Assembly (NCBI GenBank): GCA_030643545.1
Contig: DAOWLE010000031.1
Coordinates: 1 to 34,736 of the forward strand
Direction of reading: 5' to 3'
DNA from: a bacterium
Lineage (GTDB): Bacteria > Patescibacteriota > Minisyncoccia > JAHIHE01 > DAOWLE01
Length of the DNA: 34,736 nucleotides
In this document: positions 1-2,790 of the stretch, in pieces
Numbering within the stretch: position 1 is the first letter of the stretch
Layout of the letters: each line of letters starts with the position of its first letter
The notes under the pieces: generated by a model
Databases searched by the model: none
Told to the model about the DNA's origin: nothing
What the model saw: the letters and a program-made list of their open reading frames with translations, nothing else
Translations under genes and position numbers: made by a program

Positions 1-197
1 AATCCGACAATAATTTTCAGAAGCACGCTTTTGCCGATTCCATTAAAGCCGACAATAGCAATTCTGTCTTTCTGATCCACCTTTAAATCAACGCCGGAAA
101 AAATTTCCCGCGCGCCAAAATTTTTGGATACTTTGCTTAAAATCAACAATGGATTTTCCGTTGGCAAAGATTTAATTTTAAGATTGTTTTTTAACAT
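1..197 (-). CDS. ABC-F family ATP-binding protein, N-terminal 65 residues (C-terminal part outside the window)
   Basis: The gene reads leftward from an ATG at 197-195 and runs off the left edge. About 65 residues are visible. They contain an N-terminal strand block (LLILSKVSKNFGAREIF), an acidic turn, then DRIAIVG and a Walker A of the form GFNGIGKSVLLKI. The DRIAIVGxNGxGKSxLLKI context is typical of the first ATPase domain of soluble ABC-F proteins (EttA, Uup and antibiotic-resistance ARE types), which act on the ribosome E site and are not transporters. An oddity is Val where GKST is usual. The coding start is preceded by a roughly 370-nt leader holding a candidate leader peptide and intrinsic terminator, an arrangement known for several drug-inducible ABC-F genes. 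The second ATPase domain and linker cannot be seen, so a transporter ATPase is not fully excluded. Confidence 0.8.
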   Translation of the reverse strand, partial: MLKNNLKIKSLPTENPLLILSKVSKNFGAREIFSGVDLKVDQKDRIAIVGFNGIGKSVLLKIIVG

Positions 198-204
198 AAT
201 GAAA

Positions 205-375
205 GATGTCATTCCGAACCTATCAATTGTCATTCCGAACTTGTTTCGGAATCTTATCCCCCTTTTTTTTAAAGAGGGTTACGGGGATTTTTGAATTAGA
301 TCCTGAAACAAGTTCAGGATGACAAATTAAAAGTTTAGAGTCTGTCCCGAATTTATTTCGGGAATGACAAATTAA
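205..375. repeat. Cluster of palindromic intergenic repeats (CATTCCGAAC / CATCCTGAAC type)
   Basis: Several short hairpins lie in tandem: ATTCCGAAC...TTTCGGAAT near 231-253, ATCCTGAA...TTCAGGAT at 300-320, and CCCGAA...TTCGGG near 345-362, each next to GTCAT or ATGAC. A CCCC...GGGG palindrome at 258-288 separates them. A 61-codon minus-strand frame here translates to CHPELVSGS and KQVRND, the usual readout of such repeats, and is not a gene. In the minus direction the cluster forms the last part of the ABC-F mRNA leader. The final copy ends 11 bases before the start codon. Confidence 0.75.
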
Positions 376-387
376 AATTCCCCAATT

Positions 388-478
388 AAAAAACCTGCTA
401 TATTCCACAGTTTTCTTTTTAAATTTGTTTGATTTCTAAAATAAAACCAAATTAAAGAAAACCGCTAAATAGCAGGTT
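388..478 (-). terminator. Intrinsic terminator inside the ABC-F leader (attenuator candidate)
   Basis: On the minus strand AACCTGCTAT (478-469) pairs perfectly with ATAGCAGGTT (401-392). The stem is extended by GTTTTCTTT against AAAGAAAAC, and a run of six T follows (393-388). An alternative pairing exists: AAATAGC at 511-505, inside the leader ORF, is complementary to GCTATTT at 473-467, which is largely the 5' arm of the terminator. The two structures are mutually exclusive, as expected of an attenuator. Confidence 0.65.
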
Positions 479-551
479 GTATTTCGTAAAAAATAACCGT
501 ACTGGCTATTTCATTCATTTTAATAAAATTTTGCGGATTACAAATTTTCAT
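465..551 (-). CDS. Putative 28-residue leader peptide upstream of the ABC-F gene
   Basis: An ATG at 551-549, about 15 nt after the predicted transcription start, opens a 28-codon frame (MKICNPQNFI...) that ends at TAG (467-465). The stop codon lies just inside the terminator loop, next to the 5' terminator arm, so a ribosome completing or stalled at the end of this frame would cover that arm. No good Shine-Dalgarno is visible, and a four-codon frame (MSL-stop) overlaps its start. The peptide has no recognisable homology. It is called only on position between promoter and terminator, which matches ribosome-mediated attenuators of ABC-F and erm-type resistance genes. Confidence 0.45.
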   Translation of the reverse strand: MKICNPQNFIKMNEIASTVIFYEIQPAI

Positions 552-572
552 AAACTCATTTTATCTATCATT

Positions 573-601
573 AAAATAGCATATTGCAAGAAAGTTGTCA
601 A
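573..601 (-). promoter_or_regulatory. Sigma70-type promoter for the ABC-F leader transcript
   Basis: TTGACA (601-596), 17-bp spacer, TATTTT (578-573), with TGC immediately before the -10 (extended -10). Predicted start is near 566. GGATTAGGGCGGG lies directly upstream of the -35. Confidence 0.7.
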
Positions 602-602
602 T

Positions 603-712
603 CCCGCCCTAATCCTAACGCAAGTTTTTTTGTAATAGAATAACAGAGCCGTAAGGCGGCTTCGCTTTTGGTTTATTGATAATAGAAAGTCATACTTTGG
701 GATTAGGGCGGG
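603..712. repeat. 13-bp inverted repeat (CCCGCCCTAATCC / GGATTAGGGCGGG) between divergent promoters
   Basis: CCCGCCCTAATCC at 603-615 is the exact reverse complement of 700-712. Each arm lies upstream of a promoter pointing outward: ABC-F leader on minus, tRNA-Ile on plus. GTCAA occurs on both sides (597-601 and 713-717), so a small inserted element with 5-bp target duplication is an alternative. The interior carries a small hairpin (AGCCG...CGGCT) and no ORF. Related sequence occurs beside promoters at 9957-9971 and 6459-6472. Confidence 0.6.
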
Positions 713-725
713 GTCAAATTTTTTC

Positions 726-753
726 TTGCCAAAAAAGTAAAATTTGTTATAAT
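726..753 (+). promoter_or_regulatory. Promoter of the tRNA-Ile / tRNA-Ala / thiol-transporter unit
   Basis: TTGCCA (726-731), 16-bp spacer, TATAAT (748-753), with TGT before the -10. Start predicted near 760, about 20 nt before the tRNA. Confidence 0.65.
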
Positions 754-780
754 AAATGTGGATAAAGGAAAAATAAATTT

Positions 781-854
781 GGGCGTATAGCTCAGTTGGT
801 TAGAGCGTTTCACTGATAATGAAGAGGTCCCTGGTTCGAATCCAGGTACGCCCA
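781..854 (+). tRNA. tRNA-Ile (GAU)
   Basis: Full cloverleaf: 7-bp acceptor GGGCGTA/TACGCCC, D arm GCTC...GAGC, anticodon loop CTGATAA giving GAT, T arm with GGTTCGAATCC. Discriminator A at 854. The 3' CCA is not encoded (CAA follows). Confidence 0.96.
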
Positions 855-897
855 CAAGGAAATTGAAAATGTAAAAATCAAAATGTAAAATTAAAGT

Positions 898-921
898 GTA
901 AATTTTCTGTTGAAAATTTAC
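898..921 (+). terminator. AT-rich hairpin between the two tRNAs (weak terminator or processing signal)
   Basis: A perfect 10-bp stem GTAAATTTTC / GAAAATTTAC with a TGTT loop, followed by TTATATTTT. It is AT-rich and the T tract is interrupted, so termination would be partial. The next tRNA shows no clear promoter of its own, which favours read-through. Confidence 0.4.
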
Positions 922-975
922 TTATATTTTAAAAATAGTTTTGAGATTTAATTTTTAATTTTTTGAGATATTTCC

Positions 976-1047
976 GGGCCTTTAGCTCAATGGTAGAGCA
1001 TCGGTTTTGCATACCGAAGGTTGGGAGTTCAACTCTCCCAAGGTCCA
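976..1047 (+). tRNA. tRNA-Ala (UGC)
   Basis: 72-nt cloverleaf: acceptor GGGCCTT/AAGGTCC with one G-U pair, D arm GCTC...GAGC, anticodon loop TTTGCAT giving TGC, T arm GGGAG-TTCAACT-CTCCC. CCA is not encoded. The next gene starts 18 nt downstream, so it is probably cotranscribed. Confidence 0.96.
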
Positions 1048-1065
1048 CTTGATACCAAACTTATA

Positions 1066-2790
1066 ATGAAGATAAAAAACAAAAACTGGACTCTAAAATT
1101 CATATTTTTAACTGCTATTTGTCTTTTAGCCGGCGCAGGCGGATTTAGTTTTGCCTTTGCTGAAGATAGTTCTCCAAGTTCTACAACTTGCGCAGTTTAT
1201 TTTACTTATATTGGTTGTCCTAATTGCGCTCAAGTTGATCCTGTTGTTTTAACCGAATGGACAAAAAAATACCCTGAATTAGCAATTATTGAATATGTGT
1301 GGAAAGGCGGAGATTGGCAGGATCCAAATTCCCAATTTTTTGGAGAATTTGCTAAAGAATATAAAACTCAAGCCGCTGTTCCTCAATTAGTTTTTGATAA
1401 AAAAAATATCAGGTTGGGCGGAATGGATGTTCCTCAAGGAGAAAAGAATATTAAAGCTTTAACTTCAAATCCTTGTCCTTTAATAAATGAAACTGTGTTT
1501 TGGGAAAATCTTGATTTAAACAAATTAAAAGCCAAACCAAAAATTTGGGCCAATGGAAGAATTTTAATAAAGAAAGACAATGGCTGGCTCTTTCAATGGA
1601 ATGGAAAATCTTTTTCAAAAGATTCTAAGAATATAATCGGAGATAGGGCTATAACCAATAAATTAGCAAAAGAATTGCTTTTTACTGAAAATATTTCTAA
1701 TATTCTTCAGGGATATAAATTTGAAATTGTAGAGCCCAAAAGAGCTGATTTTTCAGGGATTGCTTCTTCAGATTCAGAAGTTATTCCTTATGCTGAATTT
1801 GAAAATGCGATAAAAATAAACCCGATTAAAAATGAAGCTACTTTGGCAAAAGGGGCAGCTACGTCGAACAAGGAAGCTTTAGGTGGCAAGGTCTCCTTCG
1901 CTCCCGCCTCCGCCGAGGTTATGGCGGACAAGAAAGCTACGGCGGGCGAAGAAGAAATTGATTTACCAATCTTTGGTAAAATAAAAACTGACGGGTTTTC
2001 TTTGCCGGTTTTAACTGCCTTTTTAGCTATTGTTGATGGTTTGACTAATCCCTGTGGATTTTTTGTTATATTTTTCCTTTTATCTGCTTTAATAAGTTTA
2101 GCCGGAGCTAGAAAAAAAATGTTTTTAGTTGGAGGAATTTTTATATTCTTTTTCGCTCTTTACTATTTCTTGTTTATGGCGGTTTTACTCAATATTTTTA
2201 TGCTTGGAAAAGAAATTGCGATTTTGACTATCATCGCCGGGGGAATATGTATTTTGACTGGCTTATTAAATATTAAGGATTATTTTCTATTTCAAAAAGG
2301 AATTTCTCTTTCTCTTTCCAAAAATAAAAAATTAAAGTTTGAACAGAGAGTTAAAAATTTAAGTTTGACTAAATCCACTTCAGCTTTGATCATTGGAACA
2401 GTTATCATAGCTAGCGCAATAAGCTTAGTGGCAATTGCCTGCACTTTCGGCATTCCGTTGGCTTACACTAAAATTTTAACTTCAAAATCTTTGCCTTTTC
2501 TACAGTATTATCTTTATTTAATTTTCTATAATCTGATTTACATTATTCCAATGGCAACTATTGTTTCAATTTTTGCGATAACATTGGGCAAGAAAACATT
2601 TGGAAAAAAATGGATCAGAAGATTAAAACTTGTTTCTGGATTCATAATTTTATTTTTGGGATCAGCGCTTATTTGGAATTATATTTTATTAGAAAATATT
2701 GCTTTTATTTTTCAGATTATAATTGCCGCTATCGTTCTTTCCGGATTGATTATTTCTATCCCGCGCCTTTTAAAAATATTCCGCCGTTGA
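1066..2790 (+). CDS. Membrane thiol-disulfide interchange protein: thioredoxin-like domain fused to a CcdA/DsbD-type transmembrane domain
   Basis: A 574-residue protein. Residues 1-32 are a signal anchor or signal peptide. Residues 40-135 form a thioredoxin-like domain with the redox motif C51-P-N-C54. Residues 140-240 are a soluble spacer and 261-296 a low-complexity linker. From 310 on there are about six to seven membrane helices with NPCG (C330) and AIACTFG (C459), the two membrane cysteines expected of CcdA/DsbD proteins that carry electrons across the membrane. The inferred role is to pass cytosolic reductant to extracytoplasmic thiols. An upstream in-frame codon at 1021 lies inside tRNA-Ala, so the ATG at 1066 was chosen. 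The linker is encoded by a GC-rich palindromic repeat unlike the rest of the gene. Domain order (thioredoxin first, membrane domain second) differs from DsbD, where thioredoxin is C-terminal. Confidence 0.82.
   Translation: MKIKNKNWTLKFIFLTAICLLAGAGGFSFAFAEDSSPSSTTCAVYFTYIGCPNCAQVDPVVLTEWTKKYPELAIIEYVWKGGDWQDPNSQFFGEFAKEYKTQAAVPQLVFDKKNIRLGGMDVPQGEKNIKALTSNPCPLINETVFWENLDLNKLKAKPKIWANGRILIKKDNGWLFQWNGKSFSKDSKNIIGDRAITNKLAKELLFTENISNILQGYKFEIVEPKRADFSGIASSDSEVIPYAEFENAIKINPIKNEATLAKGAATSNKEALGGKVSFAPASAEVMADKKATAGEEEIDLPIFGKIKTDGFSLPVLTAFLAIVDGLTNPCGFFVIFFLLSALISLAGARKKMFLVGGIFIFFFALYYFLFMAVLLNIFMLGKEIAILTIIAGGICILTGLLNIKDYFLFQKGISLSLSKNKKLKFEQRVKNLSLTKSTSALIIGTVIIASAISLVAIACTFGIPLAYTKILTSKSLPFLQYYLYLIFYNLIYIIPMATIVSIFAITLGKKTFGKKWIRRLKLVSGFIILFLGSALIWNYILLENIAFIFQIIIAAIVLSGLIISIPRLLKIFRR
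1885..1950. repeat. GC-rich palindromic repeat inserted in frame in the linker of the thiol-transporter gene
   Basis: Nested inverted repeats CCCGCC (1903-1908)/GGCGGG (1941-1946) and TCCGCC (1909-1914)/GGCGGA (1923-1928) sit in an otherwise AT-rich gene. The same TCCGCC...GGCGGA theme recurs intergenically at 13838-13868. It encodes the Ala/Gly/Lys-rich linker and keeps the frame open. Confidence 0.65.

Follow-up and report, generated by a model that had tools for sequence, protein, structure and literature searches.

Characterized ABC-F proteins act on stalled ribosomes, and in the trp, leu, and ilv attenuators the position of the ribosome in a leader open reading frame (ORF) decides termination. 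Attenuation through an upstream ORF (uORF) is already described for ABC-F genes of Firmicutes and actinomycetes. At msrD, the terminator is blocked by a ribosome that has stalled on the leader, and MsrD feeds back through that leader to repress itself; the leader peptide, MsrDL, is the six-residue MYLIFM and stalls at the stop codon with cladinose macrolides (PMC10314930). The vmlR leader combines a three-codon uORF with an anti-antiterminator and an antiterminator (PMC9226507), while ARE5/lmrC leaders rely on start-codon stalling by LSAP drugs at very short uORFs (PMC12421871). EttA, an ABC-F protein not involved in resistance, also acts through a leader peptide (EttA-MgtL; PMC11282234). In the literature searched, we found no report of an ABC-F leader peptide or of ribosome-mediated attenuation from Patescibacteria/CPR, and an earlier note on the DNA analyzed here likewise knew of no case described in that phylum. 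Here we present a locus in a Patescibacteria genome at which a leader-peptide, ribosome-mediated transcription attenuator probably controls an ABC-F gene; judging from sequence, we put the probability of this reading at roughly 0.8.

The locus lies on the minus strand, at 601 to 388, of the window, by which we mean the whole 34,736-nucleotide stretch of DNA that was analyzed. Four elements proposed in the earlier note were all recovered (Table 1): the promoter, the ORF of 28 codons, the terminator with its 5′ arm overlapping the end of that ORF, and the downstream ABC-F gene. The transcript is expected to start near 566 on the minus strand. The terminator 5′ arm is formed by the final leader codons, CAA CCT GCT ATT TAG, and the U-tract is followed after 194 nt by the ABC-F start codon at 194. 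Leader ORFs lack a clear Shine-Dalgarno sequence, which counts against an attenuator. Across the region from the ABC-F gene lie two tRNA genes; since they run the opposite way, the leader promoter would be the natural promoter for the ABC-F side.

Table 1. Features of the leader region and their positions in the window
Feature	Position	Strand	Remarks
Sigma-70-type promoter, TTGACA-17-TATTTT	573..601	-	TG extended -10
Leader ORF MKICNPQNFIKMNEIASTVIFYEIQPAI (then stop), 28 codons	465..551	-	Homologues and coding constraint
In-ORF hairpin	490..512	-	512-504 pairs with 498-490
Intrinsic terminator	388..478	-	5′ arm 478-469, 3′ arm 401-392, T6 tract 393-388
Dispersed GTCATTCC-type repeats, outside the switch	217..370	.	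Between terminator and ABC-F start
ABC-F gene, 5′ end (64 residues in window)	1..194	-	Cut at base 1 by contig end

The terminator hairpin has 10 perfect basal pairs followed by T6. The earlier note had suggested folding the RNA with an energy model and looking for covariation in sister genomes, and both analyses favored the terminator. In the window it folds at -30.5 kcal/mol (z, -6.6), a stability matched by 0 of 200 shuffled sequences. Among relatives, 5 of 14 stem pairs were changed on both sides; counted in a fixed register over eight distinct sequences, the covariation score was 0.360 versus 0.263 for shuffled alignments, and 0 of 500 shuffles scored as high. A perfect arm plus U-tract was found at 2 of the 237 short ORF ends in the whole window, the second being the ordinary terminator of a neighboring gene. 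Because only these 2 ends were comparable and relatives share the arrangement, the association of leader and terminator is above chance.

The mutually exclusive alternative stem of the earlier note (AAATAGC/GCTATTT) was not supported. The letters are present on the minus strand of the window, but upstream pairing of the terminator 5′ arm has a predicted probability of 0.01 there, and AAATAGCC pairs instead with GGTTATTT inside the ORF. Mean upstream-pairing probabilities were 0.01 to 0.13 in the window, in family f2, and at most f3 loci, 0.22 to 0.32 in G005 and L072, and 0.48 to 0.65 in the G015 copies, where the pairs are local and form no common stem. Thus, a vmlR-type antiterminator, in which the terminator 5′ arm pairs with the upstream leader, was found neither in the window nor in relatives. 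A hairpin does occur at a similar position within the ORF in relatives and might make RNA polymerase pause; covariation in this hairpin is no more than suggestive (68 of 500 shuffles were equally high). No Rfam leader or riboswitch exceeded its gathering score in window positions 1 to 1200, where only two tRNAs reached it.

We examined the arrangement across the 18 genomes of the order, among which the ABC-F N terminus was matched in 17 and the PF12848 linker domain in 16; the relatives are annotated as Moraniibacteriota, Paceibacterota, and Parcubacteria. In the class the gene is rare, occurring in 23 of 286 sampled genomes. Among loci with sufficient upstream sequence, the arrangement recurs in every one of the 11 other genomes of the order that have a testable gene and lie outside family f4, for a total of 13 ABC-F loci in 12 genomes with the window included. 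Each has a promoter, a homologous ORF of 28 to 30 codons, and a terminator that overlaps the final codons with its 5′ arm. A thirteenth genome (G008) carries the leader at a contig end, and L072 has a homologous leader with the same layout. In all leader-bearing loci of the order and in L072, TTGAC lies ~49 nt (47 to 58) before the leader ATG. The earlier note had singled out sister genomes that keep the ABC-F gene while losing the ORF and paired arms as an observation that would speak against the attenuator, and the opposite was found except in the two genomes of family f4 (L027 and L028), which keep the ABC-F gene and lack a homologous leader. These two share another upstream short ORF, MTFRQY(H/Y)KILTDCLE(S/G), ending in a stop.

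At nine loci, the U-tract is separated from the ABC-F ATG by 6 to 41 nt, a gap in which a separate promoter could hardly fit, and expression of the ABC-F gene would then require read-through of the terminator. Judged by this spacing alone, ABC-F transcription appears to depend on read-through. An intrinsic terminator stands between promoter and ABC-F gene, and the end of a conserved, constrained short ORF overlaps the terminator arm, as expected of an attenuator. Against an attenuator, the leader in the window is ~190 nt upstream of the ABC-F gene, with repeats between the two.

The leader peptides can be aligned: STVIFYEIQPAI in the window corresponds to GCVVMFEVKPVR, GCVIMYIRTRPVK, GTVVVLSAETC, EAVVRFENDIY, GSAVIFVAKSTD, and RKIVSYEKEAGF in relatives. 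When columns of the aligned leader DNA were shuffled, 2 of 5,000 shuffles matched the protein conservation of the largest family, 1 of 5,000 did so while also leaving every row without a stop, and 0 of 5,000 matched the conservation of the motif block across lineages. The pN/pS ratio was 0.44 in the leader frame, compared with 0.93 and 0.68 in the two others. By these comparisons the leader ORF is constrained as a protein. The in-ORF hairpin and the terminator arm, and not the peptide, may account for some of the conservation of the motif.

Beyond the order, ABC-F orthologs ~50% identical, Nealsonbacteria among them, are preceded at L075, L076, L078, and L080 to L082 by leaders unlike ours in sequence (for example, MFVQTIEYMRSC and MKSFVQTIEIEYTRTI, each followed by a stop), and the terminator arm again lies at the stop codon. 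L079 keeps the ABC-F gene, and no leader was found upstream of it; the upstream region of L077 was left out of the leader comparison. By inspection, the arrangement was absent from five family f17 ABC-F loci and from eight distant ABC-F loci in other Patescibacteria classes. No ABC-F relatives were found in viral contigs.

A covariance model built from the leader (R1) and searched in the genomes of the order returned the ABC-F leaders and, more weakly, further matches that look real. Within the window's own genome no second leader was found, the next match (E, 0.049) lying inside a protein gene. In G013 (L140), which has no ABC-F gene by PF12848, MNISNPQFVSVETNRKADSVLALNLSLLLV with its stop and a terminator precede leuA, whose own frame carries one in-frame stop in that assembly. 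Six of the last 11 residues of this leader (VLALNLSLLLV, then stop) are Leu. The Leu codons occupy the place of the hydrophobic stretch of the ABC-F leaders, a correspondence suggesting that regulation acts through stalling at those codons. The homologous leuA leader thus provides an independent pointer that suggests ribosome-stalling control of the ABC-F leader as well. In its own right, it looks like a classic leucine attenuator in Patescibacteria.

A second homologous leader family (for example, MTTLNSQSMRMKESQITGYFVIVKISLLIK, then stop) likewise comes with a terminator and is rich in Ile, Leu, and Val. Its members are L143, L144, L138, L142, L150, L153, and second loci of G009, G007, and G006; after the leader there usually come 1 to 2 kb of DNA rich in hairpins and poor in protein-coding sequence. 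In two genomes, at L138 and L153, a gene for tRNA-Val (anticodons GAC and TAC) begins a few bases past the terminator of a Val-containing leader of this family and may be under attenuation control.

We propose that RNA polymerase would start near 566 and transcribe the leader ORF and that, by default, the terminator would form and transcription would stop near 388. Were a ribosome to stall within the final ~10 codons of the leader, around the [VI][VI]x[FY] stretch, its footprint would cover the terminator 5′ arm (about codons -5 to -1); with the arm covered, no hairpin would form and polymerase would read through to the ABC-F gene, whose product would relieve the stall and could close the loop. 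ORF translation and arm occlusion are part of this proposal, and relief of termination by stalling is inferred from the layout and from the leuA leader. Direct occlusion of the arm, the mechanism described for msrD (PMC10314930), is the simplest account, simpler than an alternative stem. Of the attenuator put forward in the earlier note, then, the conserved promoter, ORF, and terminator stand, and the exclusive antiterminator stem is not supported. The signal is most likely an inhibitor of the peptidyl transferase center or exit tunnel, or else intrinsic stalling.

The first possibility, that the attenuator senses a ribosome-targeting antibiotic of the macrolide, lincosamide, or pleuromutilin type and that the ABC-F protein serves in resistance, as at msrD or vmlR, has in our judgment slightly less than an even chance. 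The rest of the ABC-F gene lies on another contig of the same genome (C9:14402-12984), whose residues align to ortholog P0001 from position 72 onward. Against the 380-bit cut-off of the NCBIfam ribosomal-protection-like ABC-F model, orthologs P0001, P0002, P0004, and P0005 scored 463, 465, 430, and 488 bits and the C9 fragment 413, in keeping with resistance, as are the accessory distribution of the gene in the class and the frequency of uORF attenuation at ARE ABC-F genes elsewhere. However, every cut-off of the named ARE families (Msr, Vga, Lsa, Sal, OptrA, and CplR) was missed, so that the earlier description of an ARE-type ABC-F may apply by the broad ribosomal-protection-like model and by no named resistance family. 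The four orthologs and the C9 fragment also fell below the cut-offs of the EttA, YbiT, and Uup NCBIfam models. YheS, YbiT, and EttA are the closest solved structures by sequence, which speaks against resistance, and so does the presence of the gene as a single copy that does not look mobile in almost every genome of the order.

The second possibility is a leader that is by nature difficult to translate, with the ABC-F protein resolving the stall, so that low ABC-F activity raises its own expression. Coinheritance of the leader with a single ABC-F gene across the order argues for such autoregulation, and there is precedent in the clearing of nascent-chain pauses by ABC-F proteins and their action through leader peptides (EttA-MgtL, PMC11282234) and in the repression of MsrD by itself through its own leader (PMC10314930). 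Since the leader contains no recognizable known intrinsic arrest motif, we regard this as rather unlikely. More doubtful still, and offered as speculation, is a wider scheme in which homologous leader attenuators were inherited in the order and reused for ABC-F, leuA, and possibly tRNA-Val, the ABC-F leader acting as a physiological self-sensor by way of an intrinsic stall that the ABC-F protein clears, thereby setting its own level.

The leader might instead sense aminoacyl-tRNA, as a leuA-type leader would, with ribosomes stalling on Val or Ile codons during branched-chain amino acid shortage. The Leu-rich leuA leader, the second leader family (Ile, Leu, and Val making up 0.61 of the last 11 residues), and a Val fraction of 0.19 in the ABC-F leaders versus 0.05 in window proteins all point that way. 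Yet the I+L+V fraction of the ABC-F leaders is 0.31, compared with 0.24 in window proteins and far below the 0.73 of the leuA leader; Val or Ile is invariant at no position, one Val occurs in the window leader, and the ABC-F protein has no obvious link to these amino acids. Lacking a strict control codon, the ABC-F leaders favor drug-induced or intrinsic nascent-chain stalling, and we rate amino acid sensing as a minor and improbable rival.

The ORF and terminator could also form an independent small-protein gene that merely happens to precede the ABC-F gene, with a promoter and terminator of its own. This is very improbable: the unit always accompanies this ABC-F gene, the terminator arm overlaps the coding end at every locus of the order, and the 6- to 41-nt spacing at nine loci led us to reject it. 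A transposable or repeat element with terminator-like ends is scarcely credible and was rejected too, given that only the repeats flanking the region recur in the genome, whereas the leader-terminator stretch is single copy and relatives have it at the orthologous position. As to those repeats, relatives carry other sequences in place of the GTCATTCC-type repeats. On the other flank, window positions 597 to 720 form a ~120-bp repeat with inverted ends (CCCCGCCCTAATCCC and GGATTAGGGCGGG), part of which has dispersed copies in the genome; the -35 hexamer lies at its edge, and another copy likewise adjoins a TTGACA promoter.

A conserved leader offers a handle on ribosome stalling in the reduced, hard-to-culture cells of Patescibacteria and on the role of a rare ABC-F protein, be it drug protection or difficult nascent chains, and it could be studied in E. 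coli or in a cell-free system, with no need to culture the organism. Like msrD/MsrDL of Streptococcus (PMC10314930), the locus combines a short ORF, an intrinsic terminator, and an ABC-F product; unlike MsrDL, the leaders here have 28 to 30 codons, are unrelated in sequence, and come from a different phylum. It resembles the vmlR leader of Bacillus (PMC9226507) in the proposed uORF-controlled transcription attenuation of an ABC-F gene and differs in having no supported antiterminator. With the ARE5/lmrC leaders of actinomycetes (PMC12421871) it shares a uORF and premature terminator before an ABC-F gene, again in another sequence and phylum. The trp, leu, and ilv attenuators are matched by the homologous G013 leader, which precedes leuA and has Leu control codons, and not by the ABC-F leaders, in which no codon plays that part strictly. 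What is new, for an attenuator of a known kind, is the little-studied phylum and the unrelated leader family.
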